The notes under the pieces are model-generated. The model ran no database searches. It saw only the letters and a program-made list of their open reading frames with translations, and was not told the origin of the DNA. A stretch of 23,579 bases of DNA from a virus. Location of the stretch: IMG/VR virus record IMGVR_UViG_3300034160_000208, positions 1-23,579 of that record; one strand, given 5' to 3'. The position numbers and the translations under genes are program-made. Shown here in pieces: positions 1 through 22,808 of this stretch (positions within the stretch are counted from its first letter, which is position 1; each line of letters begins with the position of its first letter).

Positions 1-576
1 TCATCCTCGCCCTCCAGCTCGGCTAAAAGCCGCAGCCATTTTTTTATCGTAATTATTGATCGCGTAACCTGGGCCGTTATAACCCTTGGCAAACGCAGGC
101 CAATCAAGCGCGCGCAGGGCCTTAACCAGCGCCGAATTAGCATTGATAAAACGTACAAAGGCCTCCAACTGCGCTACGTCACCGCTGTACATAGCGTTGA
201 TAAAGGATTGTAATGTAGTGTATTTCAGCGATTTCCAGTGATAACCCATTATCTGGAATGCCCCCCAACTGCATGACTGGAGTGCGCATTCGCGTTCGAT
301 GTTCGCTGCCCGTGCCAGGCGGTCATGCTCCGCCGCACCGCCGCTATAGCCACCCGCCGCGCGGTTAACCAGATCGGCAGGCAAGGCATCGATTTTGCTC
401 CCTTTCTCCAACAATAAACGACGGAACACATGGCGTTCGAACAGAATTTTTGGCCGGCCATCAGGCAGCATCCCCCGCCCCACACTTTCTACCTCAGCCA
501 CCGCCTGCACGGCGGCACAAGGAACTCCTAGCAGTGTTGCTGCCCGTTGATAATCCTGAGAGGTCAGATTACTCAT
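1..576 (-). CDS. Endolysin, N-acetylmuramidase (DUF3380/PF11860-type)
   Basis: This 191-aa protein should hydrolyse peptidoglycan in the periplasm at the end of particle production, once holins open the inner membrane. Residues about 18-190 match the N-acetylmuramidase family. An AVAEVES segment carries the likely catalytic Glu30, followed by DGRPKILFERH, a WGAFQIMG stretch and a C-terminal GYNGPGY. Length is that of a bare catalytic domain with no separate wall-binding domain. I start it at ATG 576 because GAGGA lies five bases upstream; an in-frame GTG at 588 has a poorer ribosome site. It overlaps the stop of the upstream 3TM holin by 8 bp, so the two are translationally coupled. It has no signal peptide, so it needs the holins. 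The stop codon is the first three bases of the window; spanin genes, if any, lie beyond. Confidence 0.88.
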   Translation of the reverse strand: MSNLTSQDYQRAATLLGVPCAAVQAVAEVESVGRGMLPDGRPKILFERHVFRRLLLEKGSKIDALPADLVNRAAGGYSGGAAEHDRLARAANIERECALQSCSWGAFQIMGYHWKSLKYTTLQSFINAMYSGDVAQLEAFVRFINANSALVKALRALDWPAFAKGYNGPGYAINNYDKKMAAAFSRAGGRG

Positions 577-874
577 GGCCGTCCTCACTTTTCTTAATCC
601 CAGAAAAACGGACTAATTGTTTGATGTTACCCTTAACCGAAAACACGCCAATACATAACGCAACGTTGAGCAGAGCTTCAGCGGGGTCCACCTCATCATA
701 TACGCCCAGGGCAAGGCGCAGCGCCACCGTGCCACTGGCAACAATGACGCAGAAAGCAAAAATAGCCGCACCGTAATCATGATTCTTTTTACCCCGACGG
801 AAGGCGAGTAGCCGTAGCGCAATCAAACTACAGGCTATTCCATTTATCACTAACAGCAGAGTATCAAGGCTCAT
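569..874 (-). CDS. 3-TM holin-type membrane protein (PF05449-like)
   Basis: This 101-aa protein has three hydrophobic segments at roughly residues 4-23, 35-57 and 66-82, with a basic loop (FRRGKK) after the first and a charged C-terminus. The pattern VDPAEALLNVALC followed by a KGN segment resembles the putative 3TM holin family. It probably acts in the inner membrane to release or help release the muramidase encoded next to it. It overlaps the stop of the 126-aa holin upstream by 11 bp and the endolysin start downstream by 8 bp, giving a tight three-gene lysis cassette. A role as antiholin rather than holin is possible, since two small membrane proteins sit side by side. Confidence 0.75.
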   Translation of the reverse strand: MSLDTLLLVINGIACSLIALRLLAFRRGKKNHDYGAAIFAFCVIVASGTVALRLALGVYDEVDPAEALLNVALCIGVFSVKGNIKQLVRFSGIKKSEDGHE

Positions 875-1244
875 TGTTATGCCCCCCTTTTTTGAGCAGA
901 TCGGGATCTGCAGCGCGCTTGGTTAACGCCATTAATAAGCGGACACTGACGGCCGAACTGACAATAGCACCAATCAGCTTGGTTACTGCCAGTTCACCCG
1001 GCAACGTAGTGGATAGTGCATTAGCAAAAAATTCGCTCGAGACCACACCGATCAAAAACGACACCACAAACAGCACGGTTCGGGTGATAAAAGGGTAATC
1101 TTTCGCGCTAATGACAAAGATCACCGAACCAATAAACGCACCAATCACCACATCGGCTGCCTCCGGCCCAGACAGCAGCCCAGCGATAGTCGCACCAGTG
1201 ACGATAGCGGTAGCCATTGCCGCACTTGAAATAGGTTCTGACAT
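864..1244 (-). CDS. Putative phage holin, 126 aa
   Basis: This small, very hydrophobic protein has four candidate membrane segments (about residues 8-25, 31-47, 53-71 and 87-107) and a charged, hydrophilic tail rich in Lys, Asp and Asn. It is the first gene of the lysis cassette, with a good ribosome site (GAGGAGAG) before ATG 1244. The size, segment count and position ahead of another holin-type protein and an endolysin fit a phage holin. I do not recognise an exact family. It starts only 17 bases after the T-tract of an intrinsic terminator, so its expression must depend on read-through or on a promoter upstream of that hairpin. Confidence 0.72.
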   Translation of the reverse strand: MSEPISSAAMATAIVTGATIAGLLSGPEAADVVIGAFIGSVIFVISAKDYPFITRTVLFVVSFLIGVVSSEFFANALSTTLPGELAVTKLIGAIVSSAVSVRLLMALTKRAADPDLLKKGGHNNEP

Positions 1245-1261
1245 AGACTCTCCTCAGAAAT

Positions 1262-1285
1262 AAAAAAGCCCCGCATTGCGGGGCT
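1262..1285 (-). terminator. Intrinsic terminator between fibre genes and lysis cassette
   Basis: On the minus strand an 8-bp GC-rich stem (AGCCCCGC / GCGGGGCT, loop of three) is followed directly by six T residues. It lies between the last fibre gene (stop at 1339) and the holin start (1244). It should stop leftward transcription before the lysis genes unless polymerase is antiterminated. Confidence 0.9.
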
Positions 1286-1338
1286 AGGTAGAGCAAATAA
1301 AGGGTTACTCGGCACAGCCCTTTTCGACGGAGTCGTCG

Positions 1339-3081
1339 TCAATATTCGGTTGCTGGCTGAATATCTGCCTGTGATGCCACTTCTGGTTCTGGATCCGCGC
1401 CATACACCTGCACGCGCAGATCCAGCCAGCGGCCTGCCGGGATATCGATCGGGTCGCCGTCGTTGTAACCAGTAACAATGTTTTGAGCGAAAGCAGGGGC
1501 AGATAAATTTGCCCGATGGAAGGTTTTGATCAGTAGATCGCCCGATTCATCAACTTCATAATCTACCCAAACCAGCGACAGCTTATTGCGATCGGTGGGT
1601 ATCTCAATACCACCGTCAATACCGCCCCATTCAGCATCAGAGTTAAATCCAAGCGTACCGCACACCCGGTAAACGCCCTCACTGATGCGCTCGGTGGTTA
1701 CACCTTGGCTTTCGATGTTGAGTTCACTGGCACCATCACCGAATAGTTTGACGATTGGAGAGGCTTTTTTAAGGAAGCCATTGGCATCTACCGTAGTGTT
1801 GTAATCGCCCCAGATACTATACGACGTCAAGGTACCTGATGCTCCAGATAGACCAGTCCGCAATTTTCCAGTCGCGCTGACGAAAACATATCCGACTGTT
1901 GGAGTACCATCCATCGGCAAAGACAGAACACCATATAACTGCTCTGCTGTTGGTTTATTTGCCGAGCTAGCTGTGATGCGGTAAATTTTGCCCACAGTCT
2001 GTCTTGTGTCATCCTGATGCTGCGGCCCGCTACCTATTCCATAATCACCAATCTTTATATAACGTGTATCATTTTTACTACGCGAGTCATAGACATCCCA
2101 TGCTGACCATGTAGATGACGTAGCACTGTAATTTCGTTGATAGTAATAATCGTTGATGCTGTATGGGTAGTATCGTTGCGTTACAAATGTATTACCGTTA
2201 GCACCGGCCACACCGGCTCTTGAGTCCAGAACAAGTAATGACCCAGATATAACAGCTGGATAATTACTTGCACCAGAAATATTAGAGTTCATACTTTGAT
2301 AATACGTACCCTCAGTTTTTATGGTATTCAAGTCAGATGTTCCCAACGGTGTTGCACGCGTTGCAACTTGAATATTGTTGGAATAAAGCGGACCGGGAAA
2401 GGTTACAGAACCATCGGCTTTGGCGCTAATAGAAGATGCTGTTCCATTCCAGCGAATAGTCATATTTCCGGTTGCTGTATCTGAAAATATCGCCCCTTTT
2501 TCCACGTCATTGACATCGCGGAATCTCAGCAACAGATTCGGCGTTGTGCTGGTAGCACGCATTTGCTGATCGCCGTTGGATGTGATGTTTTTCTTGAATT
2601 CAACGGCACTTGCTACCGTCTGCGTCGCCGTCGTGGTTTTATTCAACGTATCATTAATCGCCGCCGTCAACGCTGCCTGCGATTTCACCATCACCGTCGA
2701 ACCATCAGGCGCGGTCAGTTTGACATCCCCAGTGCCGCTGAGGATCTGCTGCCAACCATCCAGTTGGCTCTGCCACTGATTCACCAGCACCGACAGTTGC
2801 CGCGAGAAATCCGCCACGCTGCCCACCAGCGCGGTGACAATCGCATACTGCTGCCCCGTGGCGGCACTGCCGGTGTAGGCCGTTGCCAGGGTAATTTGCG
2901 TATCTGAGACCACGCGCTGAATCTCATACATCACCACCGTACCCGCACCGGGTACCAGCAGCATTTGACCAGGAGCCACACCGTAAACCGGGTTGTTCCA
3001 TTGTGTTCCCGTGCCGGTAATGGTTGCTGAATTTTGCGCAAGCGCTATCGTGCCTGTGCGATACCAAGCTGTAGAAGCCAT
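1339..3081 (-). CDS. Tail fibre / receptor-binding protein, 580 aa (copy 2)
   Basis: This is a receptor-binding type tail fibre. The first ~220 residues, starting MASTAWYRTG, are almost identical to those of the 677-aa fibre immediately upstream; they probably form the particle-attachment and shaft part. The middle region is unrelated to its paralogue, with runs such as YYPYSINDYYYQRNY, while the last ~150 residues (from NTTVDANGFLKKASP onward) are again similar in pattern but diverged. That is the expected layout for conserved anchor plus variable receptor domain. Start chosen at ATG 3081 with AAAGGAAA upstream. It is the last structural gene before the terminator. No assembly chaperone follows it. 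Confidence 0.82.
   Translation of the reverse strand: MASTAWYRTGTIALAQNSATITGTGTQWNNPVYGVAPGQMLLVPGAGTVVMYEIQRVVSDTQITLATAYTGSAATGQQYAIVTALVGSVADFSRQLSVLVNQWQSQLDGWQQILSGTGDVKLTAPDGSTVMVKSQAALTAAINDTLNKTTTATQTVASAVEFKKNITSNGDQQMRATSTTPNLLLRFRDVNDVEKGAIFSDTATGNMTIRWNGTASSISAKADGSVTFPGPLYSNNIQVATRATPLGTSDLNTIKTEGTYYQSMNSNISGASNYPAVISGSLLVLDSRAGVAGANGNTFVTQRYYPYSINDYYYQRNYSATSSTWSAWDVYDSRSKNDTRYIKIGDYGIGSGPQHQDDTRQTVGKIYRITASSANKPTAEQLYGVLSLPMDGTPTVGYVFVSATGKLRTGLSGASGTLTSYSIWGDYNTTVDANGFLKKASPIVKLFGDGASELNIESQGVTTERISEGVYRVCGTLGFNSDAEWGGIDGGIEIPTDRNKLSLVWVDYEVDESGDLLIKTFHRANLSAPAFAQNIVTGYNDGDPIDIPAGRWLDLRVQVYGADPEPEVASQADIQPATEY
2520..3081 (-). repeat. Direct repeat, copy B (5' end of 580-aa fibre gene)
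   Basis: About 560 bp nearly identical to 4689-5250, in the same orientation and exactly 2169 bp away. Differences are scattered single bases. It encodes the common N-terminal part of the two fibres; similarity falls off beyond the GGAATCTCAGC segment near 2520. Confidence 0.9.
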
Positions 3082-3216: not shown

Positions 3217-5250
3217 TTATTCGGCGTTATTATCGGTTGTAGATTCAGCATCAACCTCAGATTCAGGTTGTACCTCTTCTGGTTCGACGATCTCTGGTTC
3301 TGGCTGAGCTGGCATGCTTAAGCGCAGATCGATCCAACGCCCTTCGGGAATATCCATCGGCTCCCCGGCTACCACCATTGCGCTCTCTGGATCGAACCGG
3401 CGCTTGTGGGTGTACACCCTGATGGTGCCATCCTCATCCACTTCCGTGCTGGCAAACACCAGACGATTACCGTTGGTATCCTGTGGAATTTCAATCTGCC
3501 AGCCTTCGGTTGCCAGCCCCAAGGAGCCCGTAATCTGGTATATCCCAGTTGCTAGCCGTTGAGCGGAGACTCCTGCGGCTTCACCATTGACGGCACCAAC
3601 TCCGGCAAGCGTAAAGCCAGACAGGTAATCGGCAGCCATTTTTTCTGGATCATTGGATAGACGAATAATTGGGGAAGCCTTTTTAATAAAACCGTTGGAG
3701 TCTACAGTGGTGTTTCTATCAGTCCAAACTTCTGCCCAAGAACCTGTGATACCACTGGCAATGCGCCGAAATCCCAATCTGGCGGTAGCAGAGACATTAG
3801 ATGCTATTTGTAAACCAGAGGTACGAGCAGTATTTCCAAACACATTAAGAATGTGATTATCCTCTCCACCAAAAGAATCAGTCACTGTGTTTCTACTAAA
3901 GAATACTGGCCCATTAATCCTATAATCAGATGCTAATGTAATGCCCGTTACAGCAGGACGATAATCAGCACCTAGGCCATATGCCCCTATTTGGAGGTAG
4001 CGGGAATCATTCAGACTGCGGGATGCCATTACCTCCCATTCACTCCATGTTGCTATACTGGCATCGTAAATACGTTGGTAAAAAAATGAGCTACCTTTAT
4101 AGGGGTAATATTGCTGAGTAGCATACAACTCGCTGCCAATTGATGCTTTCGATTTCAGAACCCTTAAAACACCCGCCACGTTTGTTGGATAATGTCTACC
4201 TGCTGTTGCATTAGCATTAAGCGCCTGATAAAAGTCCCCCTCGTCAAATACAGTATCTAAATCAAGCGTACTTAGTGATATAGATTTAGTGGCTACCGGA
4301 GTAGATCCTATATACAGATTGTTTAATACTTTTGCGGTACCTGCTCTTGCATCCACAGAAAAAACTGGTTGCCCATAGTTCACATTAGATGCAAGATTAG
4401 TTGTTGCTGTAGAAACAACTGAGAAACCATTATTCGTCGCTATGCTCGCATTATTTGGATGGGCAAGATCTGCTCTGTCACCACCACGAAATATAAATGG
4501 AAGAGTACCAATATCAGGTACAGCACCTGTAGTCGTATAGGCGTTATTTAATACGAGGCCATTATACAGCGAGACAAATCCATCAGCCCGGAATGATGCC
4601 GTATTTACAGTCCCATTCCAGCGGATATTCATCACTCCCGTATCCGTCTGCGCATAAATAGCCCCCTTTTCGACATGATTAGCATCGAGGAATCTCAGCA
4701 AAAGATTTGGCGTTGTGCTATTAGCACGCATTTGCTGATCGCCGTTGGATGTGATGTTTTTCTTGAATTCAACTGTACTTGCTACCGTCTGTGTCGTAGC
4801 CGTAGTTTTACTCAACGTGTCATTTATCGCCGCCGTCAACGCCGCCTGCGATTTCACCATCACCGTCGAACCATCAGGCGCGGTCAGTTTGACATCCCCA
4901 GTACCGCTGAGGATCTGCTGCCAACCATCCAGTTGGCTCTGCCACTGGCTCACCAACACCGACAGTTGCCGCGAGAAATCCGCCACGCTGCCCACTAGGG
5001 CTGTGACAATCGCATACTGCTGCCCCGTGGCGGCACTGCCGGTATATGGCGTTGCCAGGGTGATTTGCGTATCTGAGACCACGCGCTGAATCTCATACAT
5101 CACCACCGTACCCGCACCGGGCACCAGCAGCATTTGGCCAGGAGCCACACCGTAAACCGGGCTGTTCCATTGTGTCCCTGTTCCGGTAACGGTGGCTGAA
5201 TTTTGCACAAGCGCTATCGTGCCTGTACGATACCAAGCTGTAGAAGCCAT
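3217..5250 (-). CDS. Tail fibre / receptor-binding protein, 677 aa (copy 1)
   Basis: This is the larger of two paralogous fibres. Residues 1 to about 220 are shared almost exactly with the 580-aa fibre downstream. Residues about 220-500 are unique, contain repeated aromatic stretches (QYYPYKGSSFFYQRIYD) and are more AT-rich than the flanking gene ends by eye. The C-terminal part (NTTVDSNGFIKKASP, then GVSAQRLATGIYQITGSLG) is a diverged version of the one in copy 2. The protein ends in an acidic Glu/Pro/Asp-rich tail. It starts 18 bp after the end of the 449-aa shaft gene, with AAAGGAAA before ATG 5250. Role inferred: target-cell recognition at the baseplate rim. Confidence 0.82.
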   Translation of the reverse strand: MASTAWYRTGTIALVQNSATVTGTGTQWNSPVYGVAPGQMLLVPGAGTVVMYEIQRVVSDTQITLATPYTGSAATGQQYAIVTALVGSVADFSRQLSVLVSQWQSQLDGWQQILSGTGDVKLTAPDGSTVMVKSQAALTAAINDTLSKTTATTQTVASTVEFKKNITSNGDQQMRANSTTPNLLLRFLDANHVEKGAIYAQTDTGVMNIRWNGTVNTASFRADGFVSLYNGLVLNNAYTTTGAVPDIGTLPFIFRGGDRADLAHPNNASIATNNGFSVVSTATTNLASNVNYGQPVFSVDARAGTAKVLNNLYIGSTPVATKSISLSTLDLDTVFDEGDFYQALNANATAGRHYPTNVAGVLRVLKSKASIGSELYATQQYYPYKGSSFFYQRIYDASIATWSEWEVMASRSLNDSRYLQIGAYGLGADYRPAVTGITLASDYRINGPVFFSRNTVTDSFGGEDNHILNVFGNTARTSGLQIASNVSATARLGFRRIASGITGSWAEVWTDRNTTVDSNGFIKKASPIIRLSNDPEKMAADYLSGFTLAGVGAVNGEAAGVSAQRLATGIYQITGSLGLATEGWQIEIPQDTNGNRLVFASTEVDEDGTIRVYTHKRRFDPESAMVVAGEPMDIPEGRWIDLRLSMPAQPEPEIVEPEEVQPESEVDAESTTDNNAE
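4689..5250 (-). repeat. Direct repeat, copy A (5' end of 677-aa fibre gene)
   Basis: Partner of 2520-3081. Homologous recombination between the copies would delete one fibre's variable part and fuse the shared N-terminus to the other C-terminus. Confidence 0.9.
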
Positions 5251-5268
5251 AGTGAATTTCCTTTTATT

Positions 5269-6618
5269 TTAATTGCTAGATTCAAATGCCGTTAACCGAG
5301 CATTGATGGTAGAGAGAGAAGAGGCTAATTGACGTAATGTGCTCAATACATTGGCATTGGCAATGCGTGCTTCAATGGCCGTGGTGGCAGCACGTTCCAC
5401 GCGATCGTCGATATTAGTGGTTAACGCGGCTTGCGCCGTATTAGCACTGGCCAATGCTTGAGATATCACCGTAATACTGTTGCTAAGTGCTGCATCTGCC
5501 GCATTCACATCCCCCCTCAAGGCTGATATCGATTGTGTTAATACGGCATCCGCAACAGCACGGTTTTTCGCTTCACCATCAATAGCGTTTGCTAACACCC
5601 CATTTTGGTTATCAAGCAATTCTAACTGGCCATCAAACTTACTATTTAGGGTTCGTTGCTGATTCTGAGTGGCATTTAACTTGCTATTGGTCACTACCAC
5701 GGCAGCAGAAACCGCATCAACCTGTTGTGTCAGTTGATCGATCTGTGACAATACGACCTTTTTATCGCCATCTGTCGTAGCAGTTAACTGGCTGATATTG
5801 AGATGTAAAATCTCATCAGCAGCAAGCCGCGAACTGCTTTCCGTTGCCAAAAACGCCAAGGCATCGTCAACACGCTGCGATAACGCGCTATCAGCTCCAA
5901 CACGCATAGCGGTTTCTGCTGCAAGTTGCGCAGACAGTTCACCGTTAATCCCGCGCTGTTGGCACTGAACAGCACTCAGCTTTGCTGCTGTCACCACTGC
6001 CGCAGCAGAAACGGCATCCACCTGCTGTGATACCTGCGTAATCATAGCCGCATTGTTGGCCACGGTGTCAGTCGCACGCTGAGCGGAATCTCGCGCACTG
6101 ATTTCTGATTTCAACGCCGCAGTAGCGGATACCTCAGCAGCGCTGGCGCTCTTAGCTGCATCATCACGACTCTTACCAGCAGATAATTCAGAATTTGCAG
6201 CTAGACTGGCACTGTGTGTCGCGTCCTGAGCAGATTGCGCGGCGGCCAGCTCAGAGATTTTCGAGTTATCTTCTGACTTTTGTGCCTGCTGTGCGGCGGC
6301 CCGTATCTCTGCCAACACAATCGGCCCAGTCAGTTCCGGGGCACTCTCCACCAGATAATCATTGAGCGTCCCCGATGGGCTACCATCAAGCAGCGTGATC
6401 ATCCCCAATACCACCCGTTGCCCGTTTTTATACACTACCGTGACCGTATATTCGCCTGGATAGAGTTCGAGTTTATATTCTCCCCCGGGCCCGGTAGTAA
6501 CACTGGCGGCAATCTGTAAAAACGTCTGGCGGGTGTTATGGCGGGAAGTAATAACCAGATTGGCACTGGGGATCGGAATCCCCTCAGGACTACGGTAGAT
6601 ACCTGATAGTGTGATCAT
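5269..6618 (-). CDS. Coiled-coil tail fibre shaft with phage_tail_N-type N-terminus, 449 aa
   Basis: Residues 1-100 resemble the N-terminal domain of lambda-type side tail fibres: a small beta fold beginning MITLSGIY, with TTGPGGEYKLELYPGEYTV and then SPSGTLNDYLVES. Residues about 105-449 are almost entirely Ala/Ser/Gln-rich predicted coiled coil. Two segments, about 194-232 and 294-332, repeat with a period of exactly 100 residues, each containing QQVDAVSAA. The protein ends in coiled coil without an obvious receptor-binding tip. It is followed after 18 bp by the 677-aa fibre, which suggests that it is a shaft or adaptor for separately encoded tips. It is preceded by a fibre assembly gene ending 9 bp upstream. 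Confidence 0.75.
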   Translation of the reverse strand: MITLSGIYRSPEGIPIPSANLVITSRHNTRQTFLQIAASVTTGPGGEYKLELYPGEYTVTVVYKNGQRVVLGMITLLDGSPSGTLNDYLVESAPELTGPIVLAEIRAAAQQAQKSEDNSKISELAAAQSAQDATHSASLAANSELSAGKSRDDAAKSASAAEVSATAALKSEISARDSAQRATDTVANNAAMITQVSQQVDAVSAAAVVTAAKLSAVQCQQRGINGELSAQLAAETAMRVGADSALSQRVDDALAFLATESSSRLAADEILHLNISQLTATTDGDKKVVLSQIDQLTQQVDAVSAAVVVTNSKLNATQNQQRTLNSKFDGQLELLDNQNGVLANAIDGEAKNRAVADAVLTQSISALRGDVNAADAALSNSITVISQALASANTAQAALTTNIDDRVERAATTAIEARIANANVLSTLRQLASSLSTINARLTAFESSN

Positions 6619-6627: not shown

Positions 6628-7038
6628 TTAGGCTGGGATGTCGGGCCAGATAATATTGGGTGTAGACGTATCCACCGCACGCAGTTGCTGAATATAAAGC
6701 ACCCAAACCGTGAGAAATTCTTTATCCTGATCGCTGATAACACCCAGTTGTAATTCTGTCTGCCATACACTGATGGTATTTTGTGCCTGTGATAACAGGT
6801 AAGATCTTTTATTTTCTGCCGACTCTGGTGTTTCCAGTGATTGAGGAATTTCAATCCAAGTAGGCAGCCCCTGATAATCTGCACCGCGTATTTTTCCTGC
6901 TGGTGGCGTCTGGATATATTGATGGTAAATTTCTTCGCTAACATCAACTAAATCATCAGGCAGCGAACCCGCCGAGAGATAATCGCCAAGCATTGACACA
7001 GGATAAAAAGCCCCTGTTTTTTGACTAAATTTATACAT
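6628..7038 (-). CDS. Tail fibre assembly chaperone (caudo_TAP-type), 136 aa
   Basis: This small chaperone is of the family that helps trimerise and fold the fibre encoded just upstream. It starts MYKFSQKTGAFYP, the usual N-terminal signature, and ends in the family-typical QQLRAVD ... IIWPDIPA. I place the start at ATG 7038, two bases after the stop of the 350-aa fibre; an upstream in-frame ATG at 7062 lies inside that fibre and lacks the family N-terminus. It is diverged from the 196-aa chaperone (8109-8699) but the last ~50 residues follow the same pattern, so the fibre/chaperone pair is probably an old duplication. Confidence 0.85.
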   Translation of the reverse strand: MYKFSQKTGAFYPVSMLGDYLSAGSLPDDLVDVSEEIYHQYIQTPPAGKIRGADYQGLPTWIEIPQSLETPESAENKRSYLLSQAQNTISVWQTELQLGVISDQDKEFLTVWVLYIQQLRAVDTSTPNIIWPDIPA

Positions 7039-7040
7039 AA

Positions 7041-8093
7041 TTAATACCCCACAGCCATCCAATAAGCCTCACGTTCCCTTGCACCATGATACCAAGCGAA
7101 ACTTGTATTGCTTGCCATTAAATTGCTCGTTTGTGTATTCCAGGTCGTTTCATAACCCTGAGCGAAATTACGTAGAGTAAATGATACGGACAATATTCTA
7201 TTTGGCATGGCGATATGTAACCCCACCCAATCAGTACTACCATTAGAGTTATTAGTACCTGAGGCAAAACCACCTTGAAAAATCATCCCGCTGCTGAGAT
7301 CTTTATACCACCATGCATCTCCACTGACCGCTCGCTGAGTGGGGGGATTGTTTGGGCTATAAACCCGCTGCCCCTGCTCATAGAGCCCAGCACCAGTATC
7401 AATATTTCCTAATACTCTGCCGCCATGTATGCTTAAATAACGACTATCAGGAGGATTATTGGGGCTATAAACTCTCTGACCTTGCTCATAGAGTCCTGCA
7501 CTAGTATCAATACTTCCTAATACTCTGCCACCGTTGATACTTATATAACGGCTATCAGGAGGGTTATTTGGGCTATAGACCCTCTGCCCTTGCTCCAGAA
7601 CCTCTGTGCCAGTCGCAGTGTTTAAATTACCATTTCTATCAATTTCAAAATACTTTCCTGTGACATTAGAAGTCACTCTAACATATCCATCTGTTGGTGT
7701 TGAAACCGTACCCTGCACTTTACCGTTGGCATCTTTGATGGTGTATTTTGTTGCAGTGGCATTTGATTTAACCTCTAACCCCCCCGTCAGTATTCCGCCA
7801 GTCAATGGAAGATAACCTTTGTTAATAAATTGAGTGAGTGCATTCACTAAATTTATTTGTAAAGTCTTCGTATCCCCATTATCCAGTACATCTTGCTCAC
7901 TATTATCAGCAATAAACTGTGCTACTGCATTAGTAATGACGCTGGATTGCCGCAAAGCGGTATTAATCTCTTTGGATTTTGCCACTCCGGTATTAAACCC
8001 CGAACTTCTAGCACTTAGCGCCAACCATTCGTCTGAGCTTAATACATTCGCACCATTATTTACCCCAAAGGGTAGAAACTCATTTTTAGCCAT
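7041..8093 (-). CDS. Tail fibre with Gp53-like C-terminus, 350 aa
   Basis: The N-terminal ~85 residues (MAKNEFLPFG...) are clearly paralogous to the 225-aa collar-domain fibre at 8699-9376, so both probably dock on the same baseplate partner. A middle region carries three tandem 36-residue repeats built around EQGQRVYSPNNPP. The last ~95 residues, ending WMAVGY, resemble the Gp53-like tail fibre C-terminal domain. Start chosen at ATG 8093 because it gives the same MAKNEF start as the paralogue and has AAAAGGA upstream; ATG 8102 sits on that ribosome site. It is followed after 2 bp by its own assembly chaperone. Confidence 0.83.
   Translation of the reverse strand: MAKNEFLPFGVNNGANVLSSDEWLALSARSSGFNTGVAKSKEINTALRQSSVITNAVAQFIADNSEQDVLDNGDTKTLQINLVNALTQFINKGYLPLTGGILTGGLEVKSNATATKYTIKDANGKVQGTVSTPTDGYVRVTSNVTGKYFEIDRNGNLNTATGTEVLEQGQRVYSPNNPPDSRYISINGGRVLGSIDTSAGLYEQGQRVYSPNNPPDSRYLSIHGGRVLGNIDTGAGLYEQGQRVYSPNNPPTQRAVSGDAWWYKDLSSGMIFQGGFASGTNNSNGSTDWVGLHIAMPNRILSVSFTLRNFAQGYETTWNTQTSNLMASNTSFAWYHGAREREAYWMAVGY
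7341..7595 (-). repeat. Tandem 108-bp coding repeats in fibre gene
   Basis: Two full copies and a partial third, with unit starts at 7595, 7487 and 7379, each encode 36 residues starting EQGQRVYSPNNPP and containing GGRVLG.IDT.AGL. Copies differ by a few bases. The period is a whole number of codons, so copy-number change would keep the frame and alter shaft length. Confidence 0.85.
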
Positions 8094-8108
8094 AGGTAAC
8101 ATCCTTTT

Positions 8109-15793: not shown

Positions 15794-16377
15794 TCACTCA
15801 CTTTGTCGGCGCCATTTCTCTACCCTTTCAGCGTTATCAAACTGCAGGTCGAGAAAATCATTCATCAATGCCACATCAGCCAAGCCAATAGAACGATCGC
15901 GCAGTGCAGTATACGGAATAAGACCTGCGTCGACCGGGCGCAGCAGGTACTCTTCCCCCCCCGGCAGGGTATCCAGCGTTAAACCGCTGGCAGGTCGGCT
16001 ATCTCGCTGGCGAGGGGTACGGGAAAAAAATCGCCAAGGGAATCTCGGAGAACGTTACCGACCAGTTCCAGCATGCCCAGCATGTCGATATCGTCAAACA
16101 TCATCACGCCATCCTGGAAAACTGCAGTCCAGATTTTGCCGTTCTTGCGCGAGACCACTGAGAGGCAAGGATGGAGGATCGCATCACAGTCGGCGTCGCT
16201 CATGGCGGCAACGGCTTCCGCCACCTGCGGCAACAGCGCCGCAAGCGTAATTTCACCACTTTTCAGTTCCTCAAAAACCCCCGCCACCGCGGGGAGTAAT
16301 TTACGAGAAACACGAAACTGGTCGAAAACATCGAGCTTTACCGCCCGATATTCTTGCCCTTTTAACTCAAATTCCAT
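15794..16377 (-). CDS. Tail assembly chaperone -1 frameshift product (G-GT type), 194 aa
   Basis: If ribosomes slip -1 at the T7 run (16024-16030), translation leaves the chaperone frame after residue 118 and continues for 76 more residues to a TGA at 15794-15796. The added part contains GGEEYLLRPVDAGLIPY, then LRDRSIGLADVALMNDFLD, the hallmark of the short DUF6889-type proteins that follow chaperones in related phages. No ATG, GTG or TTG opens this frame near the conserved part, so fusion is the most economical way to express it. Known phage G/GT pairs bind tape measure and tube subunits during assembly. The frame is open from the slip to the stop; slippage itself is inferred. Confidence 0.82.
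15979..16377 (-). CDS. Tail assembly chaperone, unshifted product, 132 aa
   Basis: This is the short (G-like) product, which ends at TAA 15979-15981. It begins MEFELKGQEYRAVKLDVFDQFRVSRKL, with a conserved core LGMLELVGNVLRDSLGDFFP near the end. It follows the tube gene by 2 bp and precedes the tape-measure-position gene, exactly the place of tail assembly chaperones. Amount relative to the fused product would be set by slip frequency at codons 116-118. Confidence 0.88.
   Translation of the reverse strand: MEFELKGQEYRAVKLDVFDQFRVSRKLLPAVAGVFEELKSGEITLAALLPQVAEAVAAMSDADCDAILHPCLSVVSRKNGKIWTAVFQDGVMMFDDIDMLGMLELVGNVLRDSLGDFFPVPLASEIADLPAV
16024..16030 (-). other. Programmed -1 ribosomal frameshift site (T TTT TTT)
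   Basis: Seven T residues on the coding strand sit in the phase T TTT TTT relative to the chaperone frame (third base of the GAT codon, then TTT TTT, then CCC). This is a perfect X XXY YYZ heptamer. A -1 slip here enters precisely the frame encoding the conserved DUF6889-like extension. Confidence 0.82.
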
Positions 16378-16379: not shown

Positions 16380-16820
16380 TTAGAATTCTCCCAGCATCTG
16401 GTCGATCTTGCCGCAGTCAAACACCCAGCTCACATTGCCACCTTCTTTGGCATTCACATGGTCAGGGCGTTTTTGGAACGCACAGTTACGCGCCACAATG
16501 GTATCCCCAGAGGCGGTATTACGGATGGTGATAATGTTGTTGCCCCAGAGGGTTGAAGAGAGGCCCTGTGCGCCATAAACCGAAGAGAGCTTTTTGTTCA
16601 CCGGTGAGGTTTTAAGCAGCGTAACGGTAATGGTGCCGGACTTAGCGGCGTGCAGGCTGTGCATCACTTCACCATCTGCCCCTAGAGTCATGGTGTTTTG
16701 CGGGCCGCTCATGGAAACCACGATCCCCTCGTCGGCGTTAGAGGCGCCATAACCCAGATCAATCACCCCAGTCGGGCCTGCCAAAGTGGCGCTAACGTCT
16801 GCAAATGAATAAGTAGCCAT
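16380..16820 (-). CDS. Tail tube protein (DUF3277), 146 aa
   Basis: This protein should form the inner tube that is driven through the target envelope. It begins MATYSFADVSATLAGPTGV and includes AKSGTITVTLLKTSP and a C-terminal GGNVSWVFDCGKID, all typical of DUF3277. Length is normal. It lies between sheath (15 bp upstream) and assembly chaperone (2 bp downstream), the standard order. Confidence 0.93.
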   Translation of the reverse strand: MATYSFADVSATLAGPTGVIDLGYGASNADEGIVVSMSGPQNTMTLGADGEVMHSLHAAKSGTITVTLLKTSPVNKKLSSVYGAQGLSSTLWGNNIITIRNTASGDTIVARNCAFQKRPDHVNAKEGGNVSWVFDCGKIDQMLGEF

Positions 16821-16835: not shown

Positions 16836-18308
16836 TTAACGATTTACGTTGATAATGACATCGGCGTAATGAACTGCGCCCGCCAGTTTGATGGCACACT
16901 GAATGACCGGTGCACGGCGTTTTTCACGTTCTGCCTGAGATTGTTCGGCAATCGGTGAGGCATAGGTGTAATAGCCTTTGGTCAGCGTCTCACCCGATTG
17001 CAGAATACCCAGCGGCCCGCCATTCCATACCCCTGGAGCAATAAGCCCGTTATCGACACCTTTCGCCAGTGACTGCTCGACGTTGGTCAACAGCCGTGTC
17101 ACGCCGCCATCGGTTTGTGGAATTTTGCTGGTAGAGGTGAACAGCAGGTTGTAGAGATTGTTCTGCACATAGTTTTGTAACCAGTCCAGACCATGACGCT
17201 CATCGATAAAGTCGCCATTACACATCACCCCTTCCTGGATGATCGCCGTATCGTTGTTGTAATTGACAAAGACGTTGGCATTTTTTCCTTGCAGCGTATT
17301 GGCATCGTTTTGCGACAGGGTTTCAGCGGTAATGCCCGGTTGCTGTTTGAACTTCAGAGTGATAGTGGTGTTGTTACCACTGAAATTGACAGTAAAGGCG
17401 CGCCCAAACAGCGAAGCCACCGCATAAGGATTGGCGCTCGAATACTGCACCAAAGTGCGTGAATAGTTCGCGGCTTTCAGGGTGCTGGCAATATCCGTGC
17501 TGCTGCCTGCATTGAGGATGCTGGTATTTTGCGTGGTGTGGCCAAAAATACGTGCAACACCATCAGATTCAATCAGCGCAGCAACCTTGGTGACATCTGC
17601 ATCACTCAGTGAAGTATCCGCAATCATCAGGCCGTACCAGGCAGTGGATTGGCTGGCCAGTGCAGCGATACACTCATCAATCTTCTCTGCCGCTTTGCGC
17701 GGCACAATTAACGCACCGACACTTTGTACCAGCCCCATCAAAACAGAGAGATCGGTACCGGTATTCACCGAACCATAAGTAACGGCAGACGTCGTACCTG
17801 TGGTTTTTGAGCTGATGATAAAACGGCTGCCATCCCACACCACAGTGGCCGTGCCAATGGCAGTAGCCACTTTGGCAGCAATACCGTTCAAGCTGGTGTC
17901 GGTGGAGAAATCCAATGGGCCCACGGTTTTCAGGGTGCCATCAACGGTGATTTTCATTGAGGCATCTTTCACCACAGTAAACCGGCTCAGTTGCTGTTGC
18001 GCTGGCGTCAGAACGCCACCACGCAAGACTGCGGACGCATCGTTCTTCGCCCAGCGCCCGATCAGCAAGTCCACAGGGCGCGGAGATTGTTGATAGTAAA
18101 GGTTCGCGGCTTGATATTCCGGTGAATTGAGGCCGAAATCGGCCAGCACACCGCTGATATCGCTGTAGGACCGCAGGCGCTCGTTGGCATCAATAACCGG
18201 CGAACTGCCAACAATCAGCAAAGAACCAAAGTTACGAGCCTGTGCGGCGCGGACCGCCATATTCACGGACACGTTGATAATGTTAGAAACAGGTAATCCC
18301 TGTGACAT
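16836..18308 (-). CDS. Contractile tail sheath protein (DUF3383), 490 aa
   Basis: This protein forms the sheath whose contraction powers injection. It begins [17 protein letters not shown], with [17 protein letters not shown] and [11 protein letters not shown] in the first 110 residues, and a C-terminal [20 protein letters not shown] followed by VIINVNR, matching DUF3383 sheaths. Full length with no interruption. Presence of an intact sheath marks the tail as contractile (R-type, not F-type). Confidence 0.95.
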
Positions 18309-18311: not shown

Positions 18312-18893
18312 TTACTCTCCAAAAAAGTGTGTTGGTGCTTCGAGGATAGAGTGGATCGCGTACTCTCTGACCACTTTGCGTTGGAACGTCAAGTGTTGAT
18401 CGTAGCGTCTAACCCACTGATTATTTTTAAGTTCATGGGCTGAAACTATGGCTCCCGACGCCGAAAATGCGAGGCCAGACTGATTCAGTGCTTCCCGGTT
18501 TTGTGCGATGGCGACACCATCACGAAACTCGGTAGCGAGCCGCTGTCCATGAGGGCCGTAAAAACTGACCATGATTTCAATCAGCTCATTGCGCCAGAGC
18601 TGCACGCTGTCGTCCGTTTGATTGACGAATGCCGGATTATCGTTGGCCTGAAATTTCAATATTCCTACGGAACACCAATCCTCCGAGGCCGACGGCTGGT
18701 GAGGCTGTTCGGCAGTCCAGTCCAATAAAACGTGCTTCGGCGGCAGCCCAGAGACACCCCGTACCCAGCGGGAGAGGGTGCGCTCCAGTTCGATGTCATC
18801 CTGCTGTGATGAGGAAATAGGTCTTAGGTAAGTGGTTTCGCTGTTGCTGTTATCGAGGTGGTTCTGACTGTTGCTATCAAAGTTGTTGCTCAT
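18312..18893 (-). CDS. Tail terminator / neck protein (LIC_12616-type), 193 aa
   Basis: Probably caps the head-proximal end of the tube and sheath. The pattern LSRWVRGVSGLPPKHVLLDW, then SVGILKF and LWRNELIEIMVSFYGPHGQ, and the C-terminal RRYDQHLTFQRKVVREYAI fit the LIC_12616 neck-terminator family. The N-terminal ~40 residues are Asn/Ser-rich and probably disordered. I start at ATG 18893 (GGGG upstream); a TTG at 18911 would add six residues. The start lies 17 bp inside the upstream gene. It precedes the sheath by 3 bp. In a headless particle this cap is needed to end the tail. Confidence 0.82.
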   Translation of the reverse strand: MSNNFDSNSQNHLDNSNSETTYLRPISSSQQDDIELERTLSRWVRGVSGLPPKHVLLDWTAEQPHQPSASEDWCSVGILKFQANDNPAFVNQTDDSVQLWRNELIEIMVSFYGPHGQRLATEFRDGVAIAQNREALNQSGLAFSASGAIVSAHELKNNQWVRRYDQHLTFQRKVVREYAIHSILEAPTHFFGE

Positions 18894-19272
18894 CCGGCAC
18901 CCCACCGTCAAACGGCATCAGTTCACAATGGGCCAGTACGAATCCGGCACCATAAGCCAAGTAGGGATCGACAAAGGACACTCGGTAGTCACGCCCCTGA
19001 TATGTGACAATATCGGCGTCACGCCCACTTTGCCCCTGAGTTAACCTCTCCAAGGTGATGATCTGTATCGAGCCACTGATTGTCTGGCTCGGTGGCATAC
19101 GCTGGGTCATCAGTGAATGGTTGACCGTAACCACACCGATAAACGGCATTGATTGCCGGGCAACGCTGGTGACACCATCATCGTCGGTCAGCAACAGGTT
19201 GCGCGTGACCACCAGCGTCGAGTCGGCAAAATCGGCATCCAGCAGAATATCGGTTACATCAAGCAGCGGCAT
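18877..19272 (-). CDS. Putative neck/closure protein, 131 aa
   Basis: I do not recognise the family with certainty. The protein begins MPLLDVTDILLDADFADSTLVVTRN and has a beta-rich body with SGSIQIITLERLTQG, DIVTYQGRDYRV and FVLAHCELMPFDGG. In related contractile phages a protein of this size sits between the DUF4054 adaptor and the tail terminator and acts as a head-closure or stopper component. It has GGGAGG just upstream of ATG 19272 and is separated from DUF4054 by 55 bp. Confidence 0.65.
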   Translation of the reverse strand: MPLLDVTDILLDADFADSTLVVTRNLLLTDDDGVTSVARQSMPFIGVVTVNHSLMTQRMPPSQTISGSIQIITLERLTQGQSGRDADIVTYQGRDYRVSFVDPYLAYGAGFVLAHCELMPFDGGVPDEQQL

Positions 19273-19327: not shown

Positions 19328-19741
19328 TCATAGCTGACGGCCTCCTGCGCCAAACAGCAGCAGCAGATCGTAAAACTCGGCGCCATAACGGGTATGATTC
19401 CACCAGCTAGCCTTAGGATTAAGAGTGGCGCAGTTGTCATAGCGGATACTGACCTTATCCACAGATTTTGCTGCCAGTACGCCACTGTTGTTGCCACTGC
19501 TGCCCCCCAGTGTGCTGGCCCGCATATCGGCTGCAAACAGAGTGAGATAATGGGCTACGAACAGCTCGACCACGTAGGGGTAGAGCAGGTCATAGCGCGC
19601 TTCATCCAGCAGTTGATCGGCCAATGCCAAGTGGAGAGCAATTTGTGCCGAGGGATAACGGGTCACATCGGTAAATTGCGGAAAATCACTACGGAACTGT
19701 GCCTCAGTAGGCAGCGTCCGGTTGTTAGATGGTGGTGACAT
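19328..19741 (-). CDS. Head-tail adaptor (DUF4054), 137 aa
   Basis: This protein is a neck component that normally binds under the portal ring. It has TEAQFRSDFPQFTDVTRYPSAQI near the start, LDEARYDLLYPYVVELFVAHYLTLF in the middle and a C-terminal WWNHTRYGAEFYDLLLLFG, all typical of DUF4054. Length is normal. In head-bearing relatives a major capsid gene lies shortly upstream; here only a 56-aa ORF and the portal gene precede it. Confidence 0.87.
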   Translation of the reverse strand: MSPPSNNRTLPTEAQFRSDFPQFTDVTRYPSAQIALHLALADQLLDEARYDLLYPYVVELFVAHYLTLFAADMRASTLGGSSGNNSGVLAAKSVDKVSIRYDNCATLNPKASWWNHTRYGAEFYDLLLLFGAGGRQL

Positions 19742-19743: not shown

Positions 19744-19914
19744 TTAATGACCCCCTTTAATGGTTTCCGCCACTGGCGGCTTTCGACTCCGTCCTGTTTG
19801 TGGTGTTGCCGGAGCCACCGATCGGCGCACCAGCGGCGTGCCAAAACACAATAGGAAACCCTCGGCTAATCGATAACGAGTGTTATCGAGCCGGGCATTA
19901 AAAAAATATTTCAT
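19744..19914 (-). CDS. Small conserved-looking ORF, 56 aa
   Basis: ATG 19914 is preceded by AAGGA at a workable distance. The product begins MKYFFNARLDNTRYRLAEGF and has a basic, Pro-rich second half (GRSRKPPVAET). It ends 2 bp before the DUF4054 start. It fills the gap that would otherwise be noncoding. I recall similar small ORFs between capsid and adaptor genes in related phages, but the function is unknown. Its survival at the site where capsid genes are missing marks the downstream edge of the presumed deletion. Confidence 0.6.
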   Translation of the reverse strand: MKYFFNARLDNTRYRLAEGFLLCFGTPLVRRSVAPATPQTGRSRKPPVAETIKGGH

Positions 19915-19926: not shown

Positions 19927-19946
19927 TTGAGAAAGGGCTTTCTCAA
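19927..19946. repeat. Perfect inverted repeat at the portal stop codon
   Basis: TTGAGAAAG / CTTTCTCAA, nine-base arms around GG. It spans the portal stop (19943-19945) and the 28-bp gap before the small ORF, exactly where head genes are missing. No T-tract follows on either strand, so it is not a classical terminator. Confidence 0.8.
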
Positions 19947-21283
19947 CCTTGACGCAAGCGGGTTAAATCATCTTGACGAATGGTGGAGCCGATACCGGTG
20001 ACCCGCGATGAGTCACGCAACTGTTCCGCACCCGCATAAGCCGTCATCACGCCGCTGTTCACGGCGTTGCCGATCGCTTCAACGGTCTGCATGGCCACTT
20101 TGCTACGATCAAGCTCTGACATCTGCCATAGCGGATTGAAGCTAAATGCAAAATCCTGCGGCAAGGCTTTGCCCAGCACAGAACGATGAAGAATCGACAT
20201 CAGGGTATTGACCGGGCGGCGCAGCTGCCGTGCCTGTTGAGCCGCGATGCCATCGTAGTAATTCGCCAGGTCCACATCGCCAGTGGTAAAACCTGCCGGA
20301 GATTGGCCAAACAGCCTGACCAGCGGAATGTTAAGCGCCCCAGAAAGCTGTTGTGCAAACTGTGCCAGTACCTCGGGTAACCCATTGAGGTGATAGGCAT
20401 GGGTTTCGAACTTGTCGCTGACATCCATCAGCGTCAGGCCATCAATCGACTGCCCCTGCTGAATAGCCGCCATCTGCGTCAGCAACGCTTCTCTCGCCGG
20501 GCCTCCCATCGCCAGAATCTTGCGCAGGTCGGTCACGCTGTAAGTGCGCAGCTGGGCTTTGTTCATCAACTGCACGGCTGCGGTTGTGGCGCTATCAAAT
20601 GCCAGGATCCGGTCATAAATTCGCTCTATTACGCTGATCCCCCAGCCGTTCTCATCCTGAGCCGGTTGGCTGGGCAAGGTGATGCCATCAACGCGGATGA
20701 CCCGGCTGTAATGGATCTTCCATGGCGGAATACCGCTTGAGGTATCCGTCACCTGGTAAAAACGCGGTTGCCCTAAATCAGGCCCCAGCGCACTTTCCCT
20801 GTCGCTCAGCGATAGCGACACCTGCCAGCGATTCATCGGGACAATGCCGCGGAATACGCCCGCTTTCACTGTCTCTACCCGTAAGGGAGTTGACATATCG
20901 TCACCATCCAGCAGGATCACCCCAAGCGCACCGCCATACAGTCGGCCTTGCTTGATAACGTTATTCAGGCTATTCCACAGGCCCAAACTATCCCAAATCC
21001 CCTGCAGTTGCTGCTTTGCATCCGGCTCCAAAGTAGAGGTTATCGTTACCCCATTACGGGTCATATCCTCTGCTACGGTATCCACCGCCGCACCTACCAG
21101 CCATGATGAGCGGTAAGCCGAATCAATTAATGACCGCTGATCACTGATTCTTTCAGGAAGAGGATTCTGATTGCCAGAAAATGGCGGCACACGAATGCCT
21201 GGCAGCAACGTGCCGTCGCCGTTACCCAGTTGGGTTGCCGGGGTATTTGTAGGCTGACTATTGAGTGACGTATCTATTACCAT
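19943..21283 (-). CDS. Portal protein (DUF1073 / phage_portal_3), 446 aa
   Basis: In complete phages this protein forms the dodecameric DNA channel at the capsid vertex. YRSSWLVGAAVDTVAEDMTRNG near residue 60 and the middle segment GALGVILLDGDDMSTPL are diagnostic; the C-terminal half has LVRLFGQSPAGFTTGDVDLANYYD. The frame is open over the usual family length and ends with DDLTRLRQG. GGGGG precedes ATG 21283. It is the first gene of the late operon. No terminase lies upstream and no capsid or morphogenesis gene downstream, so its normal partners are missing. Families bearing this domain are sometimes labelled anti-CBASS Acb1; I see no support for that activity here. Confidence 0.88.
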   Translation of the reverse strand: MVIDTSLNSQPTNTPATQLGNGDGTLLPGIRVPPFSGNQNPLPERISDQRSLIDSAYRSSWLVGAAVDTVAEDMTRNGVTITSTLEPDAKQQLQGIWDSLGLWNSLNNVIKQGRLYGGALGVILLDGDDMSTPLRVETVKAGVFRGIVPMNRWQVSLSLSDRESALGPDLGQPRFYQVTDTSSGIPPWKIHYSRVIRVDGITLPSQPAQDENGWGISVIERIYDRILAFDSATTAAVQLMNKAQLRTYSVTDLRKILAMGGPAREALLTQMAAIQQGQSIDGLTLMDVSDKFETHAYHLNGLPEVLAQFAQQLSGALNIPLVRLFGQSPAGFTTGDVDLANYYDGIAAQQARQLRRPVNTLMSILHRSVLGKALPQDFAFSFNPLWQMSELDRSKVAMQTVEAIGNAVNSGVMTAYAGAEQLRDSSRVTGIGSTIRQDDLTRLRQG

Positions 21284-21409
21284 TCTATCCCCCTATATAT
21301 TTGAATAATAATTAAAACCTGTTTATTGGCTGTTCTGTCCACTTGAAAATCAACCTGAATTAACAGTCGTAGCGGCATGTACCGTGAACGCATTTTCAGA
21401 GATACAAAC

Positions 21410-21441
21410 AAAAAAGCCCTTCACGCAGAGGAGAAGGGCTT
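21410..21441 (-). terminator. Intrinsic terminator just upstream of the portal operon
   Basis: Minus strand: stem AAGCCCTTC / GAAGGGCTT with a ten-base loop, running into six T. It lies about 40-70 bases downstream of the predicted start from the 21487-21514 promoter and about 130 bases before the portal ATG. This is the position of a tR'-type terminator that Q proteins overcome. Confidence 0.88.
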
Positions 21442-21474
21442 CAGGTGGCTGAGTTCAAGATACAACTCTTTGAC

Positions 21475-21514
21475 CTTATAGTTGTTACTATATCTGTTAA
21501 TCAGATTAGATCAA
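21475..21514 (-). promoter_or_regulatory. Predicted late promoter with operator-like sequence
   Basis: Minus strand: -35 TTGATC (21509-21514), 16-bp spacer, -10 TATAGT (21487-21492). A perfect inverted repeat TATAGT-tgtt-ACTATA (21477-21492) overlaps the -10. The 13-mer at 21475-21487 is also present in the repressor control region at 22001-22013. Confidence 0.6.
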
Positions 21515-21544
21515 CACTTTTTTGTTGTTATTTTTGTTGTGGGC

Positions 21545-21596: not shown

Positions 21597-21956
21597 TCAA
21601 GCGGTTGCGGCAGTCTCGGTATAAGAGAAGATTTGCCCGGCAATAAAGGCCTCGGCAACACGCAGTAGATTGGCTACATAACTCTGTGCTTTACCGATCT
21701 CTTTTGCCAAACGGTTCTGGCTAACGCGGTAGACATAATGCGCAACAATCAGTTTATAAGCCATTAAATCAAAACGTTTAAGCCCAGCAACCGCCGCGTC
21801 GATCAACATGCCTTCCTTGTCATCAATACGGATCCGGTTAGATGAACTCATCGGCAAGGCTTCCTGAAAAGTAATATTTACCGTTGCGAACTCTGTTCCC
21901 AGATGACAACGAGCCCAGTTGCCCCACGTCTCAAGGCTTTCCTTTACATTGTTCAT
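21597..21956 (-). CDS. Late antiterminator, phage Q family (PF06530-like), 119 aa
   Basis: Q proteins load onto RNA polymerase paused near the late promoter and make it ignore terminators. The N-terminal LETWGNWARCH is the family's signature start. A core with IDAAVAGLKRFDLMAYKLIVAHYVY follows, then a helix-turn-helix-like VSQNRLAKEIGKAQSYVANLLRVAEAFI, as in other members. Length is typical. GGAG precedes ATG 21956. It lies alone between the repressor-controlled promoter and a strong terminator, upstream of a second promoter/terminator pair. A plain transcriptional activator is the alternative. Confidence 0.78.
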   Translation of the reverse strand: MNNVKESLETWGNWARCHLGTEFATVNITFQEALPMSSSNRIRIDDKEGMLIDAAVAGLKRFDLMAYKLIVAHYVYRVSQNRLAKEIGKAQSYVANLLRVAEAFIAGQIFSYTETAATA

Positions 21957-21985
21957 TTTTGCTCCAAGACATACTTAATACAGTT

Positions 21986-22039
21986 GTTGTATACTACATA
22001 CTTATAGTTGTTAAATCAATATAATTGCGTTGTATCAAC
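21986..22039. promoter_or_regulatory. Operator region with repeated GTTGT half-sites
   Basis: Three dyads lie in 54 bp: GTTGTATACTAC (21986-21997, 10 of 12 symmetric), TTG...CAA (22008-22019) and GTTG-TAT-CAAC (22029-22039). They overlap the -10, the -35 and the upstream part of the leftward promoter, as expected for repressor operators. Confidence 0.6.
21991..22019 (-). promoter_or_regulatory. Leftward promoter for the Q gene
   Basis: Minus strand: -35 TTGATT (22014-22019), 17-bp spacer, -10 TAGTAT (21991-21996), about 35 bases before the Q ATG. Confidence 0.62.
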
Positions 22040-22048
22040 CCTCACAGG

Positions 22049-22076
22049 TTGTTATTGAATTTTTTTCATTTATAAT
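22049..22076 (+). promoter_or_regulatory. Repressor promoter
   Basis: -35 TTGTTA (22049-22054), 16-bp spacer, consensus -10 TATAAT (22071-22076). The leader is short and carries CAGGAG seven bases before ATG 22098. Confidence 0.65.
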
Positions 22077-22097
22077 CAGGGGAACAGGAGATCAATT

Positions 22098-22808
22098 ATG
22101 CAAACTTTAGGTGAACGCCTTGCTAAACGGCGCGAACAACTGGGCTTGAGCCAAAAGGCCTTGGCAGAAAAAGTCGGGGTCAGCCAGCAGTCGATCAATA
22201 AAATAGAGACTGGGCAAACCCGATCGCCACGCAATCTGGAGAAACTGGCAGAATCACTGTCGGTAACATCACAGTGGTTGCTGTTTGGTGAGGGTAACTC
22301 AGCGGCAACGTCACCTAAACTCGATGAAATCAAAGAGAGCCGCTTACGCGTTGAAGAATGGGAATCCATGGAGCAGGATCAGAAAGAGTTCATCGATATA
22401 CCGGTACTAGACGTTGAGGCCTCGGCGGGCAGCGGTGCCATGCCAGAAGAGGAAAGGGAAATCTATCGCCTGCCGTTTCGGCGCTATACCCTGCGCCGCT
22501 TGGGGGTGAATGCCCGTGATGCGCGGGTTGTCAGAGTGATTGGCAATAGCATGGCGCCGCTGTTACGCAGTGGTGACGTAGTCGGTATCGATACCGCGAA
22601 TCAGTTTCCGATCAACGATGGCGATTATTATGCGATCCGGGATGGGGATTTAATCCGCGTCAAGCAGTTGGTGGCCAAACCTGATGGTGGGGTGATCATC
22701 AAGAGCTTTAATAGTGCTGAATATCCGGATGAATCGCTGAATCGTCAGGAATTTGAACAACGCATCCATATTATTGGCCGGGTTTTCTGGTCTTCGACTA
22801 TCTGGTAA
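22098..22808 (+). CDS. LexA-like self-cleaving phage repressor (HTH_3 + peptidase S24), 236 aa
   Basis: This protein is the master repressor of the element. Residues about 5-62 are an HTH_3 domain (LGERLAKRREQLGLSQKALA, VSQQSINKIETG, ending SQWLLFGEG). Residues about 100-230 are an S24 peptidase: the cleavage site is Ala110-Gly111 in VEASAGSG, the nucleophile Ser151 in VIGNSMAP and the general base Lys189 in IRVKQLV. All elements for RecA-stimulated self-cleavage are present, so induction by DNA damage is expected. It is the only + strand gene of the element, divergent from Q and convergent with cysH, ending 36 bp from its stop. Confidence 0.93.
   Translation: MQTLGERLAKRREQLGLSQKALAEKVGVSQQSINKIETGQTRSPRNLEKLAESLSVTSQWLLFGEGNSAATSPKLDEIKESRLRVEEWESMEQDQKEFIDIPVLDVEASAGSGAMPEEEREIYRLPFRRYTLRRLGVNARDARVVRVIGNSMAPLLRSGDVVGIDTANQFPINDGDYYAIRDGDLIRVKQLVAKPDGGVIIKSFNSAEYPDESLNRQEFEQRIHIIGRVFWSSTIW

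Follow-up and report, generated by a model that had tools for sequence, protein, structure and literature searches.

A headless contractile-tail element of a Serratia lineage, very likely a domesticated tailocin, with predicted wall hydrolases in its tape-measure slot

Introduction

R-type pyocins and diffocin are contractile tails without heads, as is the element described here. Tail length is taken to be set by the tape measure. To our knowledge, R-type pyocins and diffocin have no portal, and the characterised contractile tails and tailocins all carry a tape measure, which is usual although not part of the definition of a tailocin.

In enterocoliticin of Yersinia enterocolitica 29930, a tailocin that has been studied by experiment, the genes of a headless Mu-type tail are preceded by those for a CI-like repressor and Q antiterminators (PMC13030884). 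It resembles our locus in its headless contractile cluster with CI-like repressor and Q before the structural genes. However, its tail is of Mu type and its tape measure is annotated, and the word "portal" does not occur in its description (PMC13030884). Carotovoricin of Pectobacterium shares with our locus a genus-wide fixed chromosomal site, holin and lytic genes, and variable fibres, but differs in its P2-type genes (GpU), tolC/ybiB site and fibre invertase; its tape-measure gene falls into 9 homology groups (PMC13195805). Diffocin too has a transglycosylase and NlpC/P60 pair, located however in the hub protein, and its full-length tape measure spans the tube (PMC11329794).

Among headed phages, Klebsiella phage ST16-OXA48phi5.2 and a prophage of Serratia sp. 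Ag1 (contig C19) share gene order, a homologous tail, DUF4054, tail terminator, spike and baseplate J with our locus. Both differ in possessing DUF2213, decoration and capsid genes and a tape measure of 639-689 aa, and the Klebsiella phage also in possessing terminase and MuF. We found no paper joining "tailocin" and "DUF3383"; as far as the literature searched shows, this tail lineage is new among tailocins.

Results

A complete tail and lysis set without head genes

The window, by which we mean the whole 23,579-nucleotide IMG/VR virus record IMGVR_UViG_3300034160_000208, was annotated over positions 1-22808, with gene calls from Pfam and PHROG scans. From portal to muramidase these scans reveal an uninterrupted minus-strand operon with all frames open (Table 1). 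Upstream of it lie Q and, in divergent orientation next to cysH, the S24 repressor. Sheath, tube, baseplate, spike and fibres are each present and intact, in the window and by comparison with its sisters, and the element has its own lysis genes, two holins and a muramidase. Terminase, capsid or head-shell, packaging, integrase and replication genes were absent from the window in the same scans, and the terminase and capsid of a complete temperate DUF1073/DUF3383 phage were found neither there nor in the sister flanks. DNA searches of phage and E. coli collections returned only remote tail matches or cysH. A sequence-only reading had described this DNA as a headless contractile-tail element beside cysH, and we confirm a complete tail with lysis genes, S24 repressor and Q, and no head genes. 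Judged by sequence, the identity of the element as a headless contractile tailocin is strongly supported.

The five fibre genes (window 1339-9376) are of three architectures, fibres 1/2 and 4/5 forming paralogous pairs. Two fibre genes were seen in the related headed prophage of Ag1 (genome G001), and the number of fibre genes differs between species. Some DUF3383 sheaths (L056, L057, L070; G370, G107, G036) lack a domain, about residues 94-215 of the window sheath.

Table 1. Features of the element, in window coordinates.
Feature	Position	Strand	Evidence and remarks
S24-type CI-like repressor (HTH + peptidase S24)	22098..22808	+	PF00717/PF01381, phrog_4; dN/dS 0.03-0.04
Divergent repressor-Q promoter/operator region	21957..22097	.	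kept in 4 species, without a conserved LexA box
Q antiterminator	21597..21956	-	PF06530, phrog_79; dN/dS 0.05
Late promoter and terminator, pR'-tR'-like block	21409..21516	-	near-invariant in 4 species; function by analogy with lambda
Portal (DUF1073/Phage_portal_3)	19943..21283	-	PF06381; dN/dS 0.08-0.15
DUF2213 head gene remnant, 56 codons (deletion scar)	19744..19914	-	open in 4 species
DUF4054 head-tail connector	19328..19741	-	Pfam; dN/dS 0.06-0.11
Head-tail adaptor	18877..19272	-	phrog_939
Tail terminator	18312..18911	-	PF23961
Contractile sheath (DUF3383)	16836..18308	-	nearest solved structure 7kh1 (tail sheath gp6)
Tail tube (KPP10_Orf10/DUF3277)	16380..16820	-	Pfam
Tail assembly chaperone	15979..16377	-	PF21822
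Tape-measure-slot chimera	14234..15787	-	domain and position evidence
Dit-like baseplate protein	13599..14234	-	PF21821
Baseplate plug (Pam3_gp18)	13303..13602	-	Pfam
Baseplate hub	12313..13269	-	phrog_196
Spike with Apex motif	11568..12323	-	PF18352, PF18946
gp25-like wedge	11215..11568	-	phrog_120
Baseplate J	10034..11215	-	PF04865
DUF2612 baseplate protein	9369..10037	-	Pfam
Fibre 1 (Collar)	8699..9376	-	Pfam
Fibre chaperone 1	8109..8699	-	PF02413
Fibre 2 (N-terminus paralogous to fibre 1)	7041..8102	-	PF21882
Fibre chaperone 2	6628..7062	-	PF02413
Fibre 3	5269..6618	-	PF08400
Fibre 4	3217..5250	-	PF25670
Fibre 5 (paralogue of fibre 4)	1339..3081	-	PF25670
Holin A	864..1244	-	PF16931
Holin B	569..874	-	PF05449
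Endolysin (N-acetylmuramidase), element boundary	1..588	-	PF11860; host iap next in sister genomes

The element occupies a fixed chromosomal site

The record ends at the endolysin stop (position 1), and the left flank was therefore read in sister genomes. Serratia sp. Ag1 and S. oryzae J11-6 carry the same element, with portal proteins 88-90% identical to that of the window, and so do further IMG/VR records. Next after the endolysin, these two genomes have a gene for an iap-like M28 peptidase and then cysG-cysD-cysN-cysC, with cysJIH on the opposite side; a third carrier species, represented by the single-contig genome G008, has the identical layout. No phage-like genes lie between endolysin and host iap in any of the three. 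The terminase and capsid genes that the sequence-only reading proposed to seek left of position 1 are thus missing in every sister genome examined, host genes following directly, and the comparison of the cysH locus that it suggested gave a fixed cysH-iap site in the three carriers, free of frameshifts.

Carriers account for 3 of the 7 species of the genus examined. In two element-free species (G007 and G010) cysH adjoins iap directly. A toxin-antitoxin-like pair occupies the site in element-free G006 and apparent decayed remains of such a pair in G009 (L051 2287-2902; L049 2236-2700). The cysH-iap site may be an insertion hotspot. By-eye inspection revealed no obvious direct repeats or att-like sequence at either element junction.

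A remnant of DUF2213 marks the head deletion

The headed relatives used for comparison were the Klebsiella phage, the Ag1 prophage, whose contig begins just before DUF2213 and leaves the terminase/MuF region outside, and a 41.7-kb contig in G388. Their gene order is portal, MuF, DUF2213, decoration, DUF2184 capsid, small gene, DUF4054, gp10-like, adaptor, terminator, sheath. That capsid genes stand between portal and DUF4054 in relatives, as the sequence-only reading had stated, holds for ST16-OXA48phi5.2, which has MuF, DUF2213, decoration and DUF2184 capsid there, and the interval in the window is indeed 201 bp. This gap encodes MKYFFNARLDNTRYRLAEG..., the start of DUF2213, the counterpart in contig C19 being MKYFFTTRLGETRYQLADG.... 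Aligned with two DUF2213 N-termini, the remnant shows 16/30 and 14/30 identities, as good a result being reached in 0 of 100,000 shuffles. Since the remnant ORF is open in and common to all four species (window, Ag1, S. oryzae and G008), the head deletion predates their split. The window also lacks MuF, the gp10-like gene and terminase, and the late promoter and portal come straight after Q.

The first 93 nt (31 codons) of the remnant (19822-19914, minus strand) vary little between species, with differences at 4-11 of 93 positions, counting third positions; divergence in the adjacent genes is much greater. What is preserved at the start of the remnant is a small protein or else an element at the nucleotide level.

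Purifying selection acts on nearly all genes, including the portal

We calculated dN/dS between the window and each of the three other species, at dS mostly 0.3-1.0. The values, 0.03-0.15 for most genes, indicate purifying selection on nearly all of them, portal included: 0.03-0.05 for repressor, Q and tube, 0.03-0.06 for J, 0.05-0.10 for the sheath, 0.06-0.11 for DUF4054 and 0.08-0.15 for the portal. There are no broken frames across the element in the four species, and the search for frameshifts in the tail genes of sister species found none. These data support the earlier suggestion that head loss with open tail frames reflects selection for a tail particle, and the preserved tail very probably serves as a bacteria-killing needle.

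The divergent genes are the tape-measure slot and the fibres, except for fibres recently shared. Relative to S. oryzae the divergence is mosaic (window 4187-14710): dS is about 0.1 in the tail core and fibres 1-3, which are close, and about 0.4-0.8 in repressor, Q, portal and lysis genes, which are distant. Recombination inside the element is the best explanation of this pattern.

Portal and neck (DUF4054, adaptor) are under purifying selection although the element is headless. The window portal lacks a C-terminal extension of ~40 aa found in a headed relative. No DUF2184 capsid gene exists anywhere in the sister genomes G002 and G008, so the kept portal and neck cannot serve a resident head of the DUF1073/DUF3383 family there. 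A selected portal in a headless tail is new as far as the literature searched shows. These retained genes count against the tailocin reading, as a headless tail should not need them.

Wall-hydrolase modules occupy the tape-measure slot

The protein encoded in this slot by the headed relatives has an extended N-terminal ruler together with hydrophobic segments. In the four headless elements the slot gene encodes only 517-553 aa, and both the ruler region and the TM-like segment are missing. The window chimera consists of a transglycosylase (aa 24-193), an NlpC/P60 domain (about aa 260-409), a Pro-rich linker and a tape-measure C-terminus. In the window and Ag1 the N-terminal module is a phiKZ gp144-type transglycosylase (PDB 3bkh, E about 1e-12 in a single-sequence search), while in S. 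oryzae and G008 it is a different, lysozyme-like one; the NlpC/P60 domain, with conserved DCSHL and H.G residues, the linker and the C-terminus are common to all four.

When the slot C-terminus was compared with 50,697 phage records, Klebsiella phages provided 7 of the 8 best matches, and the match in MK448230 is the C-terminal end of that phage's tape measure; the individual E-values are only 0.1-0.8, so the tape-measure origin of this segment rests on position. A homology search found no family tape measure elsewhere in the single-contig G008 genome. The same search matched only the transglycosylase part in G002, and in Ag1 its own headed prophage plus two partial matches. Among 295 genomes sampled from the family, a single one has the chimera. 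A PDB profile search with the four-row slot alignment gave no match, and AlphaFold models of the slot protein had a mean pLDDT of 40-46, only the NlpC/P60 core being usable.

The ruler gene has thus, unusually, been replaced by interchangeable, predicted cell-wall-cutting enzymes. Because the element has no ruler while characterised contractile tails have one, its tails might be misassembled or uncontrolled in length. The earlier R-type reading is supported; the loss of the ruler, which that reading had not noticed, departs from known R-type tailocins.

A similar slot in Mu-type headless elements

Searching viral contigs with the four-row slot alignment identified a group of IMG/VR proviruses (G669-G676) of 16-21 kb (GC about 0.64 in the one measured) that have Mu-type sheath, N, P and Mor and lack the gpT capsid. 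Where a flank is available, the repressor lies beside a gmhA-like gene (loci L114-L120, L142, L149-L151). Directly between tube and N they encode a slot protein of 677-769 aa, whose N-terminal module is either GH19 or the lysozyme-like module of S. oryzae and G008 (33-38% identical) and whose NlpC/P60 domain is 40-50% identical to that of the window. Pro/Ala-rich linkers, often a third lysozyme-like part, and a short C-terminus of their own complete the protein; the C-terminus had no match in the phage collection. A separate tape measure is absent from these elements, and no portal was seen.

They are thus like the window in combining an N-terminal hydrolase, NlpC/P60 and a short C-terminus from homologous modules, and unlike it in sheath, tube, N, P and Mor, in the C-terminus and in the portal. 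They probably represent a tailocin family, so far unreported, from a host of high GC. On the evidence of these proteins, two unrelated tail lineages are without the ruler, and as far as the literature searched shows, a ruler-less slot with swapped wall hydrolases has not been described in either. The lysozyme-like module also occurs within full-length tape measures of apparently headed DUF3383 phages, so the slot modules probably derive from phage tape measures.

The control region

A -35/-10 pair, TGTTGA-18-TATAGT, lies at 21487-21516 and is followed by a short leader and a strong terminator hairpin (21409-21442). This entire Q-portal block is near-invariant in all four species. The late promoter and Q-dependent terminator of lambda have the same layout, and by analogy Q may act at this block. 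The 10-mer TATAGTTGTT has only two copies in the window, one in the repressor-Q region and one at the late promoter; both are kept in all four species, so these are candidate sites at which the repressor may bind. Only non-conserved matches to LexA boxes, with 2 mismatches, were found in the four species. The repressor retains an SAG/SG cleavage-like (Ala-Gly) site, the Ser of GNSM and the Lys of RVK, which makes induction by self-cleavage likely, and SOS-type control fits both the S24 family and these motifs. Such control is not new, because enterocoliticin has the same kind of regulators. In Serratia sp. Ag1 (L002 9253-10000) about 430 extra bp, with further hairpins, separate Q from the late promoter.

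Discussion

The element is very likely an R-type-like contractile tailocin, domesticated in a Serratia lineage, that arose from a DUF1073/DUF3383 temperate myophage by loss of its packaging and head modules. We envisage that the S24 repressor would hold off the Q promoter and perhaps also the late promoter. On DNA damage the repressor would cleave itself and Q would be made; Q would load at the late promoter, allowing RNA polymerase to pass the terminator into the ~21-kb operon. Tails would then assemble and the producer be lysed by holins and muramidase. Released particles would attach to kin by any one of their several fibres and, on contracting, pierce the envelope. The slot chimera, kept close to the hub or the end of the tube by its C-terminus of tape-measure type, would cut glycan and peptide bonds of the target wall.

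The clear deletion scar, with a DUF2213 fragment left, could also be explained if this were a defective prophage in decay that happened to lose its head genes at an early stage and whose tail genes have not yet broken. That explanation is very improbable: four species at dS mostly 0.3-1.0 retain all frames open, with dN/dS of 0.03-0.15 for most genes, and a near-invariant regulatory block, so that the selection data already largely refute it. Selection of this kind on portal, DUF4054 and adaptor would suit a headless satellite that keeps portal and neck to borrow helper-phage capsids and be mobilised, and Ag1 does have a related headed prophage. We nevertheless regard a satellite as very improbable, given the absence of terminase, integrase and replication genes, the identical site in all carriers, and the lack of a DUF2184 capsid in the G002 and G008 genomes.

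The tail might instead be a contractile injection system aimed at the eukaryotic cells of insects or plants, not at bacteria. Carriers may be host-associated (S. oryzae by its name), and an eCIS is known in Serratia (Afp, PMC10598620). However, the Pfam/PHROG matches in the window include no AAA ATPase or eCIS (Afp/PVC)-type effector, the sole enzymatic load is the murein hydrolase modules, and fibres and chaperones are of phage type; we consider such a role highly improbable.

For the tailocin, the slot and portal admit a broader interpretation, which we advance tentatively and hold at somewhat below even chances. In contractile tailocins of at least two unrelated lineages, the ruler would have been discarded and the slot turned into a warhead bay. 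Murein-hydrolase modules that can be exchanged for one another (gp144-type transglycosylase, a second lysozyme-like module, GH19, NlpC/P60) would there be borne on a short C-terminus that is specific to each lineage and, in the Serratia elements, comes from a tape measure. The length of the tail would be loose or fixed by other means, digestion of the wall would be part of killing, and the portal would cap the tail or seed its assembly. The tape-measure diversity of carotovoricin may reflect the same trend.

If true, a selected, ruler-less, headless contractile tail would be a natural experiment on what determines tail length, and on whether killing requires a tail of defined length. Because the portal is kept, the role of a portal without a head can be tested directly. 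What is more, module swapping in the slot, present in two unrelated lineages and hinted at in carotovoricin, would, if true, be a second site of tailocin diversification beside the fibres.
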